Assembly: GCA_009840225.1 (NCBI GenBank) | Contig: VXOE01000384.1 | Coordinates: 1 to 34,936 of the forward strand | Length of the DNA: 34,936 bases | Reading direction: 5' to 3' | Source of the DNA: Caldilineaceae bacterium SB0662_bin_25 | Lineage (GTDB): Bacteria > Chloroflexota > Anaerolineae > Caldilineales > Caldilineaceae | In this document: piece by piece, positions 24,186-34,259 of the stretch | Layout: each line of letters starts with the position of its first letter | Numbering within the stretch: position 1 is the first letter of the stretch | Translations under genes and position numbers: made by a program | The notes under the pieces: generated by a model | The model's database searches: none | Told to the model about the DNA's origin: nothing | The model's input: the letters and a program-made list of their open reading frames with translations, nothing else

Positions 24186-25085
24186 TCAAATCTTGAGGCC
24201 GCTGAGGACGACACCCTGAATGAAGTAGCGCTGGGCAGCGGCGAATAAGGTGATGACGGGCACAGTCATGATGGCTGCCGCGGCCATCAGCAGGTGATCG
24301 CGCGGGTCCCGGGTTTCAAGAGGAATATTCTGAAAGAAGCGGAGGCCGACGGCGGCAGTAAATAGGTCGACTCTGTTGAGGTAGATAAAGGGACCGAAGA
24401 ATTCGTTCCAGTCGCCCAAGAACTGCAGGATCGCAACTGTAGTCAGTGCGGGCTTCATGAGGGGCAGGAGCACGCCCCAGAGGATGCGGATGGGGGACGC
24501 GCCGTCCATGAGCGCGGCTTCGTCTAAGTCTCTGGGGATCGACATGATGAACTGGCGCAGGAGGAAGATCATGAAAGCGCCGCCGCCCAGCCAGGAGCCA
24601 ATCGTAAGTGGGACGTAAGTGTTGATGAGTTTTAGGTTGAAGAAGAGAACATATTGGGGAATGAGGGTGACCTGGGTGGGAATCATCATCGTGCCAAGCA
24701 TGAGGACGAACCAGACCTCCTTGCCGACGTAGTTGAAGCGGGCAAAGGAGTATGCGGTCAGGGAGCCGGTAATGATGACGCCCGGGATAGTGATCGCGGT
24801 GATCAGGAAGCTATTGGCCATCCAGCGTGCGAACGGTACGGAATTGAAGACCATGGCATAGTTTCCCCACTGTGGGACGGCGGGGAAGAGATGGGGTTCG
24901 AAGGAACGCAGCTCCTTCCAGGTTTGCAGAGAGCTTGAGACCGTCCAGAATAGGGGGAAAGCAAACATTAGAGCGGCGATGGTGAGAAGAAGGTACGTGA
25001 CTGCCCTCTGGGCACGATTGCGACCGCGTCGGTAAACATCGGCGCGGAGTTCGGTACTGGGCAGGCGTTCGATTGTTGCGGCCAT
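24186..25085 (-). CDS. Carbohydrate ABC transporter permease (MalG/UgpE-like)
   Basis: 'LFWTVSSSLQTWKELRSFEPHLFPAVPQWGNYAMVF', EAA-type loop 'RDLDEAALMDGASPIRILWGVLLPLMKPALTTVAIL'. Confidence 0.95.
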   Translation of the reverse strand: MAATIERLPSTELRADVYRRGRNRAQRAVTYLLLTIAALMFAFPLFWTVSSSLQTWKELRSFEPHLFPAVPQWGNYAMVFNSVPFARWMANSFLITAITIPGVIITGSLTAYSFARFNYVGKEVWFVLMLGTMMIPTQVTLIPQYVLFFNLKLINTYVPLTIGSWLGGGAFMIFLLRQFIMSIPRDLDEAALMDGASPIRILWGVLLPLMKPALTTVAILQFLGDWNEFFGPFIYLNRVDLFTAAVGLRFFQNIPLETRDPRDHLLMAAAAIMTVPVITLFAAAQRYFIQGVVLSGLKI

Positions 25086-25091
25086 CTTCTC

Positions 25092-26036
25092 TTAGCTCCC
25101 GTAGTAGAAAACCCAGCGGCGTGAGAGTCGCAGTTGCCAAATGGTGAGGGATACGATTACGAATGCGAAAAACCAGGCCAATGTGGCAGCGTAACCCATG
25201 TTCCAATAGTCGAAGGCGTGACGGTAAAGGTGCAGGCTGTAGAATGTCGTTGCGAAACCAGGACCTCCCTCAGTGGCAACAAACGCCGCGGTGAAGACCT
25301 GCAGTCCGCCGATGACGCCAAGTACCATATTGAAAAAGATTGTGGGCGTCAGTAGAGGAATCGTTACGTGGCGCAGCTTGTGAAGCGCGGTTGCGCCGTC
25401 GATCGAGGCGGCCTCGTAGAGAGATTCGGGGATGCCTTGGAGGCCGGCGAGAAAAATGATCATGCGCGTGCCTCCCAGTCCTTGCCACAAGCCCATGATG
25501 ATCAGCGATGGAATCGCCCAGCGGCGGTCTCCGAACCAACCTGGCGGATCTGACCAGCCAAGGTCGATCAGCCACTGGTTGATAATGCCGAAGTCGGCGT
25601 GCAGCAGCCATTTCCAGAGGACGACCGAGGCAACAATAGGCACCAATGAGGGCATGAAGAATAGTGTGCGGTAGGTGGCGAGGCCTCGCAGTTTGGCGTT
25701 GAGGAGGATGGCCAGGAACATGGAACCAATGACGCCCAGGGGTACGCCCACGCCTGCGTAGTAGAAGGTACGGCCCAGTGACGTATAGAAGAGGGGATCG
25801 TCGAAAAACATCTTGACATAGTTGTCGAGGCCGAGCCATTCGGGTGGACTGAGAACATCGTACTTGGTGAAGCTCAAGTAGAGAGAGAAGAGCCCCGGGC
25901 CGAGAAAGAGCCCCAAGAAGCCAAGTAGCCAAGGGGTGAGAAAGAGATACCCGTAGAAGTTTTCCCGCCTCTGCCGCGATGTCGTGAGCATTTCTGAGAA
26001 GCCCGACAATCTCAGGCGGTTGGCCAGAGTCGCCAT
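25092..26036 (-). CDS. Carbohydrate ABC transporter permease (MalF/UgpA-like)
   Basis: 'FLTPWLLGFLGLFLGPGLFSLYLSFTKYDVLSPPEWLGLDNY', 'ESLYEAASIDGATALHKLRHVTIPLLTPTIFFNMVLG'. Confidence 0.95.
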   Translation of the reverse strand: MATLANRLRLSGFSEMLTTSRQRRENFYGYLFLTPWLLGFLGLFLGPGLFSLYLSFTKYDVLSPPEWLGLDNYVKMFFDDPLFYTSLGRTFYYAGVGVPLGVIGSMFLAILLNAKLRGLATYRTLFFMPSLVPIVASVVLWKWLLHADFGIINQWLIDLGWSDPPGWFGDRRWAIPSLIIMGLWQGLGGTRMIIFLAGLQGIPESLYEAASIDGATALHKLRHVTIPLLTPTIFFNMVLGVIGGLQVFTAAFVATEGGPGFATTFYSLHLYRHAFDYWNMGYAATLAWFFAFVIVSLTIWQLRLSRRWVFYYGS

Positions 26037-26055: not shown

Positions 26056-26092
26056 GAGCGGCGGGCAGAGGCTGATATTCCGCCCACCGCTC
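26056..26092 (-). repeat. Intercistronic stem-loop downstream of first SBP gene
   Basis: GAGCGG-c-GGGC (26056-26066) / GCCC-a-CCGCTC (26082-26092): 10 pairs with one mismatch, 15-nt loop. Confidence 0.6.
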
Positions 26093-26110
26093 TGTAGTTG
26101 CCCTTGAATA

Positions 26111-27454
26111 TCAGGCCGGTTCCATATCCAGGACTGCCTGGATATTGTCGTTCAGGTCCTGCAGGCCTTGCTCGAACTCAACCGGCTGGTGGGGGTCGAG
26201 AAGGAGGTCGGTCCACTGCTGGACGGCTGAGGTATACTCGCGGCCGCGCGAGTTGGCGGGCGCGTGGGCGGGTATGCCGTTCTCAAGGCTCGAGATGAAC
26301 CACTCGTGGATCGGGTCTTCTTCGATGAGAGAGTCGACCACGTCGGGCCGCACCATGGCAAAGTTGCCGCCGACCAGGTTGAAGCCAAGGCTGCCGTCGT
26401 GGCCTGCGATATGCAGGAGGAACTGGTAGCCGACGTCGGCGTGGTCCTGCCCGGTGCGAAGGTTCCATGTGCCGCCGCGAAGCTGCGAGGGGTAGCGGCC
26501 GTCTTCGCGTGCCGGGAAGAGGATCTGCCCGGCCTTGGCGACGCTTTCGTCCTCGATCTGGTTGTTGAAGTTGCGAACGCAAAGGGAGCCGCACCAGTTC
26601 ATCGTCAGAAGGCCCGCCACAAGTGCGCCGCCGGCGTTGTCGATGTCGCCGGGGGCGGGGAGTACCTGGTCAACGACACCGAGGTCATAGGCCCAGCGCA
26701 TGGCTTCTGTGGCGTTGGCGTCTTCGAGGAGGAGACACTGGGTGCCATCCTCGTTGATGAGTGAACTGCCAAACAGTCGGCACAATACGACGACGGTCGC
26801 TTCATTATGGCTGATATTGAGGCCGAAGCGCTCACCTTCCACGTAGAAGGAGTGTGCCCACTCGTGGATCATGTCGATCGACACATCACGGCCGACCGGA
26901 TCCGGAACATCCAGACCGGCCTCTTCGACATGGACTGTATTGAGTACCAGCGTGTCGAAGCCTGCCCAGCCCCAGCTGGGGAAACCGTACAGCGCGCCCT
27001 GGTAGTATTGCAGGCTCATGAAGTGTTCGAACCACTGCCCGAGGTCGGTGCTGTCGGCGGCGACCAACTCATCGATGGGCATGATGATGTCTTTGTTGAT
27101 GGCGCGCCAGAAGTGGTAATGCGATGGGTCGAAGGCGATGATTTCGCCGAGGTCTCCGGCCGCCTGTGCAGCGTACATCTTGGCGTAATTGTCCTGCTGG
27201 CCGGAGCCGGCGAGCGGTCGCAGCTCGATAGTTACATCGGGATGCATTTCGGCAAAAGTTTCCATTCGCTCTTCGTTCCAGCCGCTGCCAATGCCGCGGA
27301 AGGTGTCCCAGCGCAGGTGGACCGGCTCCATGGCGGCGCCTTCGTCGGCCATGTCTCCTTCAGGGGCTGCCGGGGCGACACAGGCTGCAAGTGCGCCGGC
27401 GGATACTGCGAGAGCGCCCTGCAAGAATGAACGTCTTGATACGCGGTCTTTCAT
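26111..27454 (-). CDS. Extracellular solute-binding protein (Tat-type lipoprotein signal)
   Basis: 'MKDRVSRRSFLQGALAVSAGALAACVAPAAPEGDMADEGAAMEPVHLRWDTFRGIGSGWNEERMETFAEMHPDVTIEL'; adjacent to permeases. Confidence 0.93.
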   Translation of the reverse strand: MKDRVSRRSFLQGALAVSAGALAACVAPAAPEGDMADEGAAMEPVHLRWDTFRGIGSGWNEERMETFAEMHPDVTIELRPLAGSGQQDNYAKMYAAQAAGDLGEIIAFDPSHYHFWRAINKDIIMPIDELVAADSTDLGQWFEHFMSLQYYQGALYGFPSWGWAGFDTLVLNTVHVEEAGLDVPDPVGRDVSIDMIHEWAHSFYVEGERFGLNISHNEATVVVLCRLFGSSLINEDGTQCLLLEDANATEAMRWAYDLGVVDQVLPAPGDIDNAGGALVAGLLTMNWCGSLCVRNFNNQIEDESVAKAGQILFPAREDGRYPSQLRGGTWNLRTGQDHADVGYQFLLHIAGHDGSLGFNLVGGNFAMVRPDVVDSLIEEDPIHEWFISSLENGIPAHAPANSRGREYTSAVQQWTDLLLDPHQPVEFEQGLQDLNDNIQAVLDMEPA

Positions 27455-27505
27455 CTGTTTCTCTCCCAGGAGATATGACGGGTAAATGTGGTTTATGCTA
27501 AGAAT

Positions 27506-27540
27506 CCGCAGCCCAGGCTCCGTCGGGTCCTGAGCCGCGG
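27506..27540 (-). repeat. Intercistronic stem-loop downstream of second SBP gene
   Basis: CCGC-agccca-GGCTC-(11 nt)-GAGCC-GCGG: 5+4 pairs with a one-sided bulge. Confidence 0.45.
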
Positions 27541-27562
27541 TAAGAAAAACTTGAGATCAGGG

Positions 27563-28888
27563 TTATGCCAGAGACTCCTTGTCCAGGACTTCCTGTACGA
27601 GGAGGTGGGTCTGCTCGACTCCCTCGTCGAATGTGGTCACTTCAGTCCACACAGCCTGGAGATTGTTGTTGAGCGTGTCTACGAACTCCAGCGTGCGGGC
27701 ATTGGCCGGTCTGTGCCACTTGCGAGGTCCATCAGGATATGTAGCGATGTGCTGGCGGAAGATTGGATGGACGGCGAAGAGCTCGTCGCTGTCCCAAACA
27801 TCGGCTCGGCCGCCAGGACTGCCGGCGCCAAAAAGGACATGCTCGATTCCATCCTCCTTCGTGGAGTAGAAGTCGAGAATCTGGAATGCTTCTGATGGAT
27901 GCTTGGAGTTACCCGTAATGCCGAAGGCGGCAGCAGACACCTGCGATCCCCTGAGTCCGGTCGGTCCGACGGGCCCGACGAGAACATCCCAGTCAAAGGT
28001 GATGTCGCCGGACTCCTTCTGGTTGTTCCAGCGCCCTACAAAACCCGTAGTCCAGTTGTATACGCCGACCGTGCCAGCGACGTAGTTGTTGAAGGTCTCG
28101 TTGCTGCACAGGCAGGGGTCGACTCCGTGAGTGAATCGTAGGTCATAGAGCCACTGAAGGCCTGCAATGGATTCTTCCTGGTCCAGCAGCGACTTCGTTC
28201 CTTCCTCGTTGATTGCGTCGCCACCGAAGATGCGAAGGTAGGAGGGGATGTGCTCCTGCCCAACTCCCATCGCGCGCACGCCCCAAACCTCAGGGGGCGC
28301 GGTGATCGCCTGACCAATTGTTACCAGGTCATCAGTTGTCCAGTCGGGTGTGGGGACTTCGGCGCCCGACTCTTCGATCAGGTTCCTGTTTATGTAATAT
28401 GCGGTCGTACCGAAGTGACCGTGATTGGGGATGGCATGCAGCTCGCCATTCAGGGTGAGTGCGGCAATTAACGAGTCCCAGAAGGGTGACAGGTCGAAGT
28501 CTTTGGCTGCGACTATGTCATCCAGCGGGATCAGTACGCCCTTTGCCTTATGTTCCGGCGGGTTGTTGAGGTAAGTCCAAACAACGTCTCCGACCGTTCC
28601 TGAGGCCGACAAGGCGTAGATCTTCGGGTACATCTCATTTCCGGGAAGTTCGTCAAACTCGAGTATCAGGCCGGGGTTCTGTTCTTCAAAAAGGTCTTTG
28701 CGGCTGACGTGCCAGTCGGCATGTGTACCCAAGCGTGTATGGAAGAGGAGCGTGATGGGCTCTTCGGAAGCCATGGCCTCTTCCCCATCACCTGACGGGG
28801 CGGCAGCTGGCACGCACGCAGACAGCGCCACGGCCGATGCGGCCAGGGCTCCCTGCAAGAATGAACGTCGCGAAACTTGCCTGTTCAT
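27563..28888 (-). CDS. Extracellular solute-binding protein, paralog of the adjacent gene (Tat-type lipoprotein signal)
   Basis: 'MNRQVSRRSFLQGALAASAVALSACVPAAAPSGDGEEAMASEEPITLLFHTRLGTHADWHVSRKDLFEEQNPG'. Confidence 0.93.
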   Translation of the reverse strand: MNRQVSRRSFLQGALAASAVALSACVPAAAPSGDGEEAMASEEPITLLFHTRLGTHADWHVSRKDLFEEQNPGLILEFDELPGNEMYPKIYALSASGTVGDVVWTYLNNPPEHKAKGVLIPLDDIVAAKDFDLSPFWDSLIAALTLNGELHAIPNHGHFGTTAYYINRNLIEESGAEVPTPDWTTDDLVTIGQAITAPPEVWGVRAMGVGQEHIPSYLRIFGGDAINEEGTKSLLDQEESIAGLQWLYDLRFTHGVDPCLCSNETFNNYVAGTVGVYNWTTGFVGRWNNQKESGDITFDWDVLVGPVGPTGLRGSQVSAAAFGITGNSKHPSEAFQILDFYSTKEDGIEHVLFGAGSPGGRADVWDSDELFAVHPIFRQHIATYPDGPRKWHRPANARTLEFVDTLNNNLQAVWTEVTTFDEGVEQTHLLVQEVLDKESLA

Positions 28889-28933
28889 GGTTCTCTCCTG
28901 ATCGGTGTGACGAAATAAAGTGAAGGATCCCGA

Positions 28934-28975
28934 TAGGACGCGGCTCAGGTTCCTGCCATCCAGAGCCGCGTCCTA
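28934..28975 (-). repeat. Perfect 13-bp intercistronic stem-loop between the two paralogous SBP genes
   Basis: TAGGACGCGGCTC (28934-28946) / GAGCCGCGTCCTA (28963-28975), 16-nt loop. Confidence 0.85.
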
Positions 28976-28993
28976 AGCGGGCTCAAACCAGGG

Positions 28994-30325
28994 TCAGACT
29001 GGATCCTTGTCCAAGACCTCCTGGACAAGGAGATGGGTCTGCTCTACACCCTCTTCGAACTCCACTGCCTGCGTCCAAATTGCCTGCAGATTGTTGTTCA
29101 TCGTATTGACAAACTCAGAAGTGCGGGCATTGGCAGGGCGGTGCCACTTGCGCGGGCCTTCTGGATAGATCTCCTGGTGCTGACGGAAGATCGGGTGGAT
29201 GGAGTTGAGCTCATCGCTCTCCCAAACGTCCTTGCGGCCGCCTGGGCTGCCGGCGCCGAAGAAGACATGCTCGATGCCGTCTTCTTTCGTCGAATAGAAG
29301 TCCAGGACCTGGAAGGCTTCCGAGGGATGATCGGAGTTGCCGGTTATACCAAAGGCGGCTGCCGACACTTGTGAACCGCGCAGGCCCGTGGGTCCAATCG
29401 GGCCGACAACGGCATCCCAATCAAAATCCAGGTCGCCGTCGTTCTTCATGTTGTTCAAGCGACCGATCCATCCTGTCGTCGTGTTAAAGATGCCTACGGT
29501 ACCAGCGACGTAGTTATTGGCAACTTCGTCGCCGCACTGGCAGGGATCTATCTGATGTGTGTGCTGCAGGTCGTAGAGCCAGCGCAGACCAGCGATGGAC
29601 TCCTCCTCACCCAGCAAGGATTGTGTTCCTTCCTCGTTGATTGCATCGCCGCCGAAGATTCGCAAGTAGGAGGGGATGTGCTCCTGTCCTGTACCGAAGC
29701 TACGGACGCCCCACACCTCGGGCGGAGCTGTGACCGCTTGCCCGATTGTAATGTAGTCATCGACAGTCCAGTCAGGGTTGGGGTTCTCTGCGCCAGATGC
29801 TTCGATCAGGGTCTTGTTGTGATAGTAGGCGGTCGTGCCGTAGTGGCCGTGGTTGGGAATGGCGTGCAGTTCACCGTCGAGCGTGACGGCTTCGAGCAGG
29901 GAATCCCAGAATTGGGAGAGGTCGAAGTCTTTGGCCGCGACGATATCGTCCAGGGGGACCAAGACTCCCTTGGCCTTGTGTTCCGGCGGATTGTTGAGAT
30001 AGGTCCAAACTACATCGCCCACCGTGCCGGAGGCTGAAAGAGCGTAAATCTTGGGATACATTTCATTGCCCGGCAACTCGTCGATTTCGAGTAGAATGCC
30101 GGGATTCTGCTCTTCGAACAGGTCCTTGCGGCTCTTGTGCCAGTCGGCGTGTGTGCCGAGCCGCGTGTGGAATAGTACGGTGACGGGTTCTGTCGAAGCC
30201 TCCATCGACTCCCCGCCTTCACCTGCTGTGGGAGCAGCGGGCACGCAGGCAGACAGAGCCAGAGCTCCGGTTGCTGCCAGTGACCCAGACAGGAACTGAC
30301 GACGACTCACATTTTTCTTAAGCAT
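28994..30325 (-). CDS. Extracellular solute-binding protein (Tat-type lipoprotein signal)
   Basis: 'MLKKNVSRRQFLSGSLAATGALALSACVPAAPTAGEGGESMEASTEPVTVLFHTRLGTHADWHKSRKDLFEEQNPG'. The track start is 30370; M at 30325 fits the signal peptide better. Confidence 0.93.
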   Translation of the reverse strand: MLKKNVSRRQFLSGSLAATGALALSACVPAAPTAGEGGESMEASTEPVTVLFHTRLGTHADWHKSRKDLFEEQNPGILLEIDELPGNEMYPKIYALSASGTVGDVVWTYLNNPPEHKAKGVLVPLDDIVAAKDFDLSQFWDSLLEAVTLDGELHAIPNHGHYGTTAYYHNKTLIEASGAENPNPDWTVDDYITIGQAVTAPPEVWGVRSFGTGQEHIPSYLRIFGGDAINEEGTQSLLGEEESIAGLRWLYDLQHTHQIDPCQCGDEVANNYVAGTVGIFNTTTGWIGRLNNMKNDGDLDFDWDAVVGPIGPTGLRGSQVSAAAFGITGNSDHPSEAFQVLDFYSTKEDGIEHVFFGAGSPGGRKDVWESDELNSIHPIFRQHQEIYPEGPRKWHRPANARTSEFVNTMNNNLQAIWTQAVEFEEGVEQTHLLVQEVLDKDPV

Positions 30326-30385: not shown

Positions 30386-31312
30386 CTATCCTTTGATGCC
30401 GGACATCACAATTCCCTGGACCAGATAACGCTGCGCAAGGAAAAAGATGACAATTATAGGTGCAGTCATCATGACACTGGCCGCCATGAGAAGGTGGTAC
30501 TTTGGCTCAGTGTCATCGGCAAAGCCGGCGACGGCCTGGAAATAGCGAATGCCGATCGCCAGCGTGTACTTGGACTTCGTGTTGAGGAAGATAAATGGCT
30601 GGAGAAACTCATTCCACTGGGCCATGAAGGTCAGAACGGCGGCGGTTGCTGTAACGGGAATGGACAGTGGCATCAGAATCTGCCAGAAAATTCGTAGGTA
30701 GTTAGCGCCGTCTATGCGGGCTGCTTCGTCCAGGTCGATGGGAATGCTCATAAAGAACTGGCGCATGAGGAAGATGAGGAAGGCGCTGCCACCGAAAAAC
30801 GAAGGAATAATCAGCGGTCTGTAGGAGTCCAGCCATCCAATCTTCGCAAACATGAGGTAGAGAGGAATCAGGGTAACTTCTACAGGAAGCATCATGGTGC
30901 TGAGAGTGATGATGAACAACACGTCGCGGGCAGGGTATCGAAAACGGGCAAAAGAGTATCCGACGAGCGCGGCGGTCAGGACTGCGCCAAAGGTTGATAC
31001 AATTGCCACGAAGGTCGAATTCCAGGTCCAGGTCGCCCAGGACACGATTTCAAAAACTTTCGGATAGTTTTGAAACTGCGGAACCTCTGGAAGCCAGGTA
31101 GGTGGGAACCTGAACAGCTCGCCACCTCTCTTTAGCGAGGAGAGGACGGTCCAAACAAAGGGAAACATGAACACGGCCGAACTGGAAACGGCGATCAGAT
31201 AGAGGATTCCTCGGCCGATGGCGCGCTGGAAGGAAGCTGACTGGAAGATCCCGGCTGGATTTATTCCGCTCCCGGTCTGTTTTCGGCCTGTTGCGATTGC
31301 TTCGCCCGCCAT
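30386..31312 (-). CDS. Carbohydrate ABC transporter permease (MalG/UgpE-like)
   Basis: 'FPFVWTVLSSLKRGGELFRFPPTWLPEVPQFQNY', 'IDLDEAARIDGANYLRIFWQILMPLSIPVTATAAVL'. ATG at 31312 overlaps the upstream stop as TGATG with ggggagg SD; the track start is 31342. Confidence 0.95.
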   Translation of the reverse strand: MAGEAIATGRKQTGSGINPAGIFQSASFQRAIGRGILYLIAVSSSAVFMFPFVWTVLSSLKRGGELFRFPPTWLPEVPQFQNYPKVFEIVSWATWTWNSTFVAIVSTFGAVLTAALVGYSFARFRYPARDVLFIITLSTMMLPVEVTLIPLYLMFAKIGWLDSYRPLIIPSFFGGSAFLIFLMRQFFMSIPIDLDEAARIDGANYLRIFWQILMPLSIPVTATAAVLTFMAQWNEFLQPFIFLNTKSKYTLAIGIRYFQAVAGFADDTEPKYHLLMAASVMMTAPIIVIFFLAQRYLVQGIVMSGIKG

Positions 31313-32262
31313 CAGTCCACCTCCCCTGCGTAATAGACCCATCGTCGCGACTGTCTGAACTGAACGTAAGTAAAGACGAACAAAACGAAGAAGAAGATCC
31401 AGGCCAGAGCCGAAGCATAACCCATTTCAAAGTACTGGAATGCGCGCGTGTAGATGTGCAATGCGTAGAACCAGGTAGAGTATGCCGGCCCGCCCTGGGT
31501 GGCGACGTATGCAGCTGCAAATACTCTCAGTGCCCCGATGATTCCAAGTACCATGTTGAAGAAAATCGTCGGTGTAAGCATTGGGAGGGTCACGTTTCGA
31601 AACTTGGCCCATAAGCCGGCGCCGTCCACGACAGCGGCATCGTACAGTTCCTGGGGAACCCCTTGCAGGCCGGCCAGGAAAATCAGCATGGTGTTGCCGC
31701 CGATTGCCCCCCACATTGCCATTATGATCAGACCGGTCATCGCCCAGTCCGGGTCTCGGAACCATCCCGGGGCGTTGTCGCTGCCGGTGATAGTACGAAT
31801 CCAATGGTTGATCGGCCCCACGTCGGCGTTGAAAATCCAGCCCCAAAGGACGGCGGCAGCGACGATGGGAGTTAGGTGAGGCAGGAAGAAGAAGGTTCGA
31901 AACCACGTCGTTCCCAGCAGTGCCTGGTTGAGGAGCATAGCCGCGGCAAGCGCGCCGATTAGTGAAAGCGGTACGACAATCAGCGCGTAACGGAAGGTGA
32001 GCATCATCGAGGGCCAGAAGAGCCGGTCTTTCGTGAAGATCTCGATGAAGTTCTTCAGGCCAACAAATTCGGGTGGGTTGACGATGTCGTAGCGGGTAAA
32101 GCTGAGGAAGCCGGAGGTCATCATTGGACCGATGATAAAGAGAATAATGCCAAGCAGCCAGGGCGACAGGAATATGTAGCCGGCGATTGCCTCTTTGGCG
32201 CGCAGGTTCCTCGTCCAACTGGGAAGTGGTATCCGTGCGCCCGCTAACGCTTTCGTCGTCAT
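31312..32262 (-). CDS. Carbohydrate ABC transporter permease (MalF/UgpA-like)
   Basis: 'FLSPWLLGIILFIIGPMMTSGFLSFTRYDIVNPPEFVGLKNF', 'ELYDAAVVDGAGLWAKFRNVTLPMLTPTIFFNMVLG'; ATGA overlap with the upstream CDS. Confidence 0.95.
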   Translation of the reverse strand: MTTKALAGARIPLPSWTRNLRAKEAIAGYIFLSPWLLGIILFIIGPMMTSGFLSFTRYDIVNPPEFVGLKNFIEIFTKDRLFWPSMMLTFRYALIVVPLSLIGALAAAMLLNQALLGTTWFRTFFFLPHLTPIVAAAVLWGWIFNADVGPINHWIRTITGSDNAPGWFRDPDWAMTGLIIMAMWGAIGGNTMLIFLAGLQGVPQELYDAAVVDGAGLWAKFRNVTLPMLTPTIFFNMVLGIIGALRVFAAAYVATQGGPAYSTWFYALHIYTRAFQYFEMGYASALAWIFFFVLFVFTYVQFRQSRRWVYYAGEVD

Positions 32263-34259
32263 TTCTGCCTCTCCCTAACCATTTCATGTCCCTCATAAAG
32301 ATCGCGCACCACTGTACCCTGGGCTTGCGCAGGAGGATCGACGCCCAGAATGTGGCAAAACGTCGGGACGACATCGACGGCATGAATGTAGCCCAGCCGG
32401 TCAACTGGGCGTTCATATCCCTTCTTCAGCCCCGGTCCGTCGAGGAAAAACGATCCGAAAGTTGACGAAAAGCCGTTTGTAGTTGGAATGAAGCCGCCAT
32501 GATGGGCGCCGTAAACAAGTGGGGCGCCGACATTTCCCCCACCGTCAATCCCGAGCCATTGCGTGTAGTAACCGCTTACATAGTCGTGGTCCCAGGCGAA
32601 GATGACGTCACCGCACTCGTCTCCCCACTGCCCCAGCAGATAGGCGTCGCGTTTGGGCAGGGCGATGGCGACAACGGTGTTGCCAGTTTCTTCGTCAACC
32701 CACGTGCGCAGGGCAGTGAGCAGCTCGCGTTCGATCTGATCGAATTCCGGTCCGGGATCGGCGTTGATCGTAATGTCGAAGCCGCGCCTGGCGAGATAGG
32801 CTTTCGTCAGGTTCCAGTCGATCTCGTCAGAAGAGGGATCTAGGTCTTGGGCAATGGCCTCGTCCCCACCTTGCTTCAGAACGAGGAAGCCCTCGTCATA
32901 CAGGAATTGCCGAAGGTTGGCGATACGGACGTCAGGGAAGGCGCCGTGGTCGGAGATAATACCAACGTAAACTTCATCCCCGTCTTGGTTGGCCTTGTCG
33001 GCCGCCTCGTACATCAGGCCCAAGACGCGGTCGCCGACCTGGTACGTGCGGCGGAAGTAGTCCATATACTTCTCTTTGGTTTCCGGATTGAATCCGGGAC
33101 ACTCCGGGTCCACGTCAGCTAAGTGGATGTGGTTGAGATAGTCATAGAGGTGCCAGTGGCAGGTGAAGTAGGAGCAACCTCTCTCGTGGAGCATGTAATT
33201 TGCCACGTTGGCAAACCAGAGGCCTTGGTATTCGCACTCTTCAAGCGCTGTATCGAAGTCGGTCATGCCTGAGGTATAAGGTGTCATCGAGGCATGTTCC
33301 TGATACGGGCCGAAGCGGCGAATGAGTTCGGCTTCCAACTCAGAATCGCCATACGTGAAGCCGTTGGTATATGTAACTTGAGTTCGATAAAGTTTCAACG
33401 AACTGCCATCGCGGGCCAGTTCTAGCAACTTGAAACGGACCGCGGCCTCCTGAGCGCGACCTTCGATTTGAAAGTCCTGGATGGCCCAGTCACTCCAATC
33501 ACCAAGGTTGGCCGCGGTCACCACGTCGCCAGCATCTCGACTACGACAAATCAAGACTCGGTCGTAACCCTTACCGCTGCTGTCGACGGCAAGCAAATGA
33601 AAGTGGTTGGCGTCTCCACCCAGACGCGCGTTGACGGAAATCGCTGTCGCCAGGGGAGTCGAGGCACTTTCCGGTAGATTGGTCCAGCCTTCGGCAGCGG
33701 CGAGCGACTCGATGGGTTCAACGCTGCGAGGGCCCTGGATGGCTGAACCGTCGTGTGCCATGGCAACATCGCTGGCCTTAGCAGGATCCGTAGTGTAGGC
33801 CTGGGCCGCAGCCACTTCGAATTCCGTGCTATTGTGCCCTGGAGCGCCGAAACCGTCGACAACGTAGCCGATTTCCACGCCTGAAGGATGGGCCCCCGGG
33901 TAGTGTACGGCTACGCTTTTGAGGCCGGCGCGCTCCAAAGAGTTCCAGATTCTTTCGGCGTTGTTGGCCCGGCCGTCAAAGCTGCTAACTGAAACATCCT
34001 TCTCGCCAGCGGCGGACTTTCGCTCAATTACAGTTTGCCACGTTGGGACGCTGTGTGTGCCGGTGTGGGCGCCGGTGGAGAGTGTTGCCCAATTGGTGGG
34101 GGTCCAGACAGGAAAGGAGGGATAGGTCTCGTTGACAGTTCCTTCGCTGAGCAAGCGACTGAAATTCGGCAGGCAGCCCTCCGAAGCAAAATACTTCATC
34201 ATCGGAGTGACGAAACCGTCCATTCCATAGGCATAGATCTTCTTTGTCATCGGCGGCAC
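32259..34259 (-). CDS. Alkaline phosphatase superfamily (type I phosphodiesterase/nucleotide pyrophosphatase-like) protein
   Basis: 666 aa; metal/nucleophile motifs 'YAYGMDGF', 'FPVWTPTNWATLSTGAHTGTH', 'GIISDHGAFPD', 'YGAHHGGFIPTTNGF'; no signal peptide evident. Confidence 0.88.
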   Translation of the reverse strand: MPPMTKKIYAYGMDGFVTPMMKYFASEGCLPNFSRLLSEGTVNETYPSFPVWTPTNWATLSTGAHTGTHSVPTWQTVIERKSAAGEKDVSVSSFDGRANNAERIWNSLERAGLKSVAVHYPGAHPSGVEIGYVVDGFGAPGHNSTEFEVAAAQAYTTDPAKASDVAMAHDGSAIQGPRSVEPIESLAAAEGWTNLPESASTPLATAISVNARLGGDANHFHLLAVDSSGKGYDRVLICRSRDAGDVVTAANLGDWSDWAIQDFQIEGRAQEAAVRFKLLELARDGSSLKLYRTQVTYTNGFTYGDSELEAELIRRFGPYQEHASMTPYTSGMTDFDTALEECEYQGLWFANVANYMLHERGCSYFTCHWHLYDYLNHIHLADVDPECPGFNPETKEKYMDYFRRTYQVGDRVLGLMYEAADKANQDGDEVYVGIISDHGAFPDVRIANLRQFLYDEGFLVLKQGGDEAIAQDLDPSSDEIDWNLTKAYLARRGFDITINADPGPEFDQIERELLTALRTWVDEETGNTVVAIALPKRDAYLLGQWGDECGDVIFAWDHDYVSGYYTQWLGIDGGGNVGAPLVYGAHHGGFIPTTNGFSSTFGSFFLDGPGLKKGYERPVDRLGYIHAVDVVPTFCHILGVDPPAQAQGTVVRDLYEGHEMVRERQK

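Follow-up and report, generated by a model that had tools for sequence, protein, structure and literature searches.

What is the role of the stem-loops that follow each of three consecutive solute-binding protein (SBP) genes in an ABC transporter operon of an uncultured bacterium? SBPs are needed in excess over membrane channels, and the solutions that operons offer to this need are known from a few model bacteria. The window analysed here, the whole stretch of 34,936 nucleotides, is one contig of a 5.6-Mb draft genome (G000) from a sponge-type lineage of the Caldilineaceae (Chloroflexota). On its minus strand a phosphodiesterase-like gene is followed by the permease genes P1a and P1b, which form a first permease pair upstream of SBP1, then by SBP1, SBP2 and SBP3, and finally by a second permease pair, P2a and P2b. 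The three hairpins occupy the SBP1-SBP2, SBP2-SBP3 and SBP3-permease spacers (Table 1).

Table 1. Genes and SBP-associated hairpins of the operon; positions are those of the window.
Feature	Position	Strand	Description and evidence
Phosphodiesterase/nucleotide pyrophosphatase-like gene	32259..34259	-	PF01663; kept upstream of P1a in homologous loci L031-L044
Permease P1a	31312..32262	-	PF00528
Permease P1b	30386..31342	-	PF00528; upstream of SBP1
SBP1	28994..30322	-	Family-1 solute-binding protein, TAT-type signal; Pfam PF01547 E 3.8e-16, PF10518; stop ends at 28994
Hairpin 1	28929..28981	-	SBP1-SBP2 spacer; perfect 13-bp core stem at 28934-28975, lengthened to 28929-28981; z -3.42; covariation
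SBP2	27563..28888	-	Tandem duplicate of SBP1 (79% identical); PF01547 E 2.1e-13; stop ends at 27563
Hairpin 2	27506..27540	-	SBP2-SBP3 spacer; z -2.59; covariation
SBP3	26111..27454	-	Divergent family-1 SBP; PF01547 E 3.1e-05, just under family cut-off; 28% identity to SBP2; own-genome match; stop ends at 26111
Hairpin 3	26056..26092	-	SBP3-permease spacer; stem of 14 pairs, including two G.U; z -3.82; covariation
Permease P2a	25092..26036	-	PF00528 E 2e-13; directly 3' of hairpin 3
Permease P2b	24186..25085	-	PF00528 E 6.8e-21

The hairpins begin 18, 22 and 18 nt past the stops of SBP1, SBP2 and SBP3 (28975-28934, 27540-27506 and 26092-26056), exactly where the original prediction had placed them, and their spacers fold with -43.0, -34.7 and -32.2 kcal/mol. 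Dinucleotide shuffles of these GC-rich spacers average -20 to -31 kcal/mol and reached an equally good fold in 2/200, 2/200 and 0/200 cases, so that the folding with shuffled controls proposed in that prediction came out in its favour (z -3.4, -2.6 and -3.8). The same shuffle test revealed no comparable fold in the P1b-SBP1 spacer (z +0.7) or at the P2a and P2b gene ends (z +1.4 and +0.4). Inspection of the window sequence found no U-tract after any of the three stems, in agreement with the absence of a T-tract on the coding strand that had been noted for them, and the window contains no Rfam match above gathering score. Hairpin 1 is indeed a perfect 13-bp stem, with arms TAGGACGCGGCTC and GAGCCGCGTCCTA, and pairing continues beyond it to 28981-28929. 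As to the cores said to be shared by hairpins 1 and 2, the GAGCC of hairpin 2 sits in the apex, and the partner of the arm CCGCGGCTCAGG is CCTGGGCTGCGG. Hairpins 1 and 2 align with each other and are related rather than independent, because SBP1 and SBP2 are themselves tandem duplicates with alignable hairpins. SBP3 is only a distant paralogue of SBP2, and the recurrence within the operon therefore amounts to about two events and not to the three that had made it seem notable; the recurrence that matters is genome-wide.

Comparison with homologous operons shows that the structure of the SBP hairpins is conserved, with pairing kept while sequence diverged. We used 14 homologous clusters (L031-L044) from other Caldilineaceae MAGs, across which the gene order is conserved. 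The tandem duplication of SBP1 and SBP2 (27563-30322) occurs in some of these operons only, and others have a single copy that is closer to SBP1 or to SBP2. Nearly all SBP spacers of the 14 operons hold a long stem about 20 nt past the stop, strongly different in sequence, as exemplified by the homologous arms CCGCGGCTCAGG, GCTGCAGTTCAG, CCCCGACCCGGA and GAGCAGTGGGCAG, each with a matching partner; for two of the spacers, automatic selection of the hairpin settled on a different part, and the homologous arms are still visible in the alignment. The covariation that the original prediction had proposed to look for in such operons is strong. In the alignment of SBP3 hairpins 94.7% of cells are paired, double changes occur at 5/13 pairs, and the covariation score is 0.323 against 0.221 in shuffles; in that of the SBP1/SBP2 hairpins 93.6% of cells are paired, changes on both sides affect 10/13 pairs, double-change cells number 31 against 8.6 in shuffles, and the score is 0.452 against 0.250. 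Neither score was reached in any of 500 shuffles, and although kinship among sequences alone can beat such shuffles without structure, the effect size and a slide control, in which a shift of the partner by 1-3 columns removed the signal from both alignments, argue otherwise.

Beyond this operon, a strong hairpin 3' of most SBP genes is a genome-wide rule. Junctions with a same-strand gene at least 45 nt downstream were tested by folding the 85 nt past the stop, with z < -2 taken as significant. A significant fold follows 60/83 PF01547 SBP genes compared with 19/272 other same-strand junctions (Fisher p 5e-32), the controls being drawn from about 0.9 Mb of stretches of the genome, most of them around SBP genes. 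The oligopeptide-type SBP genes of PF00496, a separate Pfam family, behave likewise (40/62), and permease gene ends have such a fold in 8/159 cases. Where an SBP gene precedes a permease gene the fold is significant in 51/69 junctions, as against 3/11 where an opposite-strand or distant gene follows. Stems start at a median of 15 nt past the SBP stop. Among spacers of 90-260 nt, 26 have the hairpin closer to the stop and 10 have it closer to the following start (p 0.004), with median distances of 23 nt and 58 nt, respectively; these survey spacer lengths are approximate, since genes were called with a simple codon-usage ORF caller and their starts trimmed, and the stops on which the test is based are unaffected.

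The SBP repertoire of this genome is itself very large, with 97 PF01547 and 62 PF00496 matches in its 5.6 Mb. A minority of its SBP hairpins (for example at C297:6940-8337, C299:4133-5350 and C322:2877-4100) are built of recurrent purine-rich words, AGGAGTGAG and GAGGAGAG among them, which are perhaps a source of new stems.

The composition of the stems bears on the strand that selection acts upon. In a strand-symmetric stem search that scored G.U and A.C alike, stems downstream of SBP genes favoured G.U over A.C by 185:90 (132 stems, p 1e-8), significantly so in each of three SBP sets, and at other gene ends the ratio was 29:21, which is not significant (p 0.3). Such an excess is to be expected of a transcript that folds; it points to the sense RNA as the target of selection and speaks against both an antisense RNA and a palindrome at the DNA level. 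Sense and antisense folding energies of whole regions showed no significant strand preference. A sense/antisense energy contrast on hairpins that had been chosen on the sense strand looked strong and was biased by that choice; the G.U/A.C count replaced it.

The association of hairpins with SBP genes is widespread in the phylum, yet lineage-dependent. When the best-scoring SBP genes, one to three per genome, were taken, z < -2 was obtained in 18/27 of the family sample and 15/27 of the phylum sample. Deeper sampling gave positive SBP ends in 14/20 against 1/27 controls in G005, of the same family, and in 6/8 against 0/7 controls in G031, of another family in the phylum. G037, a member of the Chloroflexota with many SBP genes, provides a natural contrast, with SBP-downstream hairpins in 0/12 of those sampled, and the mechanism is therefore not obligatory.

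We consider it likely, at a probability of roughly 0.6, that the hairpins are intercistronic 3'-end stabilisers of the malE-malF type, which would halt PNPase and so lift the level of SBP mRNA above that of permease mRNA; their purpose is very probably the provision of more binding protein than transporter channel. An endonuclease would cut the polycistronic mRNA within its permease part, and PNPase would then degrade it 3'-to-5' back toward the SBP message until it stalled at the GC-rich stem, just beyond the stretch that a ribosome covers while it terminates at the stop of the SBP gene. Such an exonuclease block would create a difference in mRNA half-life, with the SBP message outliving the permease message, and a protein ratio in which SBP output exceeds permease output. 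The analogy to malE-malF that had been drawn from the window fits: the hairpins are stable on the transcribed strand, lie 3' of SBP genes and near the stop, lack a U-tract, are conserved in structure and are commonest before a permease gene. The accompanying idea that they set the SBP:permease ratio would apply directly to hairpin 3 only, at the SBP/permease boundary, and not to hairpins 1 and 2, which lie between SBP genes.

The exonuclease content of the genome is relevant to this proposal. Stable stems stall PNPase, and RNase R is able to pass them. PNPase and Rho are encoded in G000, and no RNB-family exonuclease (RNase II/R) was detected there or in any of 11 sampled congeners, all of these genomes being drafts except for two single-contig congeners; given the different responses of these enzymes to stems, this combination would favour protection by hairpins. 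Within the family an RNB-family enzyme is present in 7/41 genomes, and the relatives G006 and G010 combine it with SBP hairpins. The occurrence of hairpins in RNB-bearing relatives speaks against the stabiliser reading, as do the location of hairpins 1 and 2 off the SBP/permease boundary, the lack of hairpins in the G037 sample, the non-significant comparison of strand folding energies over whole regions and a slight enrichment of T past the stems.

This last point leads to leaky internal termination, a serious main rival to stabilisation, or its partner, in which RNA polymerase would halt at the stem in some passes and fewer transcripts would reach the permease genes; the 3' end so created may in addition be protected by the stem itself. 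In Ruminiclostridium, SBP-downstream stem-loops have been demonstrated to terminate transcription partially (20.7-96.1%), types with few U included (PMC9045158), and here, too, stem-loops are enriched after SBP genes that precede permease genes. Their position within the operon is equally compatible with termination, and the 8 nt past the stem contain a mean of 2.27 T where 1.69 are expected. At least five T in these 8 nt, however, occur at only 3/51 stems and at 0/3 in this operon, and the presence of Rho also weighs against the proposal. Canonical intrinsic terminators were rejected as a candidate, the U-rich tract being missing at the three stems and at nearly all others. Strong hairpins are rare at the convergent gene ends of the genome (12% with z < -2), although terminators would be expected at such ends, which suggests that intrinsic terminators are little used and that stem-type termination is apparently not usual in this genome. 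Three serial terminators would moreover cut the expression of P2a and P2b cumulatively, and because of this stepwise loss a role for hairpins 1 and 2 as protectors of each SBP message seems the simpler reading. Leaky termination seems clearly less likely than stabilisation.

A barrier to translation or reinitiation, in which the stem would stop post-SBP ribosomes from scanning or coupling to the permease start or would mask its ribosome-binding site, appears improbable. Hairpin 3 would be suitably placed, ending 19 nt upstream of the permease ATG and beside a Shine-Dalgarno-like GGAG. The genome-wide preference of hairpins for the stop over the next start runs counter to such a role, as do the homologous operons, where the stems that follow SBP1 and SBP2 end about 40-70 nt upstream of the ATG.

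The stems are also palindromic, intergenic and GC-rich, and AGGAGTGAG-like words are common to a minority of them, as would suit palindromes that leave the fate of the mRNA unaffected, whether mobile or repeated (REP/MITE-like) or acting at the level of DNA (for instance protein sites or cruciforms). This explanation is largely refuted and very improbable, in view of the preference for G.U over A.C, the compensatory changes without sequence conservation and the concentration of hairpins at SBP gene ends. Two of the spacers, searched against the whole genome, returned no further homologues, and the CCGCGGCTCAGG arm is present only twice. The malE-malF stabiliser of E. coli consists of REP repeats; unlike it, every stem here has its own sequence, and the REP label of the original prediction must be dropped for stems that lie outside any repeat family. 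Chance folding, for which GC-rich spacers do offer a basis as they fold well by default, is refuted by the dinucleotide-shuffle controls, the excess at SBP ends over other junctions and the covariation, and retains next to no probability.

The preferred reading as 3'-end stabilisers places the hairpins among known systems. In E. coli, stabilisation acts selectively on SBP messages, and U-less hairpins are found where the stabilised segments end; in the ABC systems found, the stabilised gene is always the SBP (PMC5927463). Our elements resemble malE-malF and the other SBP-stabilising hairpins in the differentially decaying ABC operons of that species (PMC5927463) in that a U-less hairpin closes the SBP segment of such an operon, that the SBP message is the one that stands to be favoured and that the structure is conserved in relatives. 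They differ in location, since 17/26 protective hairpins of E. coli lie within the downstream coding sequence and those described here occupy the spacer, close to the stop of the SBP gene, and in the evidence, decay having been measured in E. coli (PMC5927463) whereas our element is known from sequence alone. With the SBP stem-loops of R. cellulolyticum they share the genome-wide SBP association, spacers above 50 nt, long GC-rich stems with little U and the strongest association ahead of permease genes (PMC9045158). In that organism partial termination was shown and most stems have some U-rich tract (PMC9045158), whereas here, in another phylum, U is near background; the present comparison extends further in covering two SBP families and testing compensatory evolution. 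A further parallel is provided by the Clostridium operons subject to selective RNA processing and stabilisation (SRPS), ABC transporter operons included, in which 3' stem-loops set segment stoichiometry (PMC8219983); these belong to another phylum. The element type is thus known, the lineage is new and the scale is unusual.

In summary, the sequences show selection for the same solution at about two-thirds of more than 150 SBP genes in one uncultured lineage and in two SBP families, a result that supports the view that distant phyla have repeatedly made use of SBP-linked hairpins. We tentatively envisage, as a rather unlikely further step, a lineage-wide post-transcriptional code in some Chloroflexota, at least this genus, whereby most SBP genes of any family would carry their own non-repeat, U-less, covarying and ratio-setting 3' hairpin, tied to a decay system whose only classical 3'-5' exonuclease would be PNPase, RNase II/R being missing. 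The hairpin offers a simple means of recognising the SBP/permease boundary computationally, and the stems form a large natural set with which reporters could test stabilisation against leaky termination. They also provide a testable link between SBP hairpins and the loss of RNase II/R that this genus appears to have undergone.
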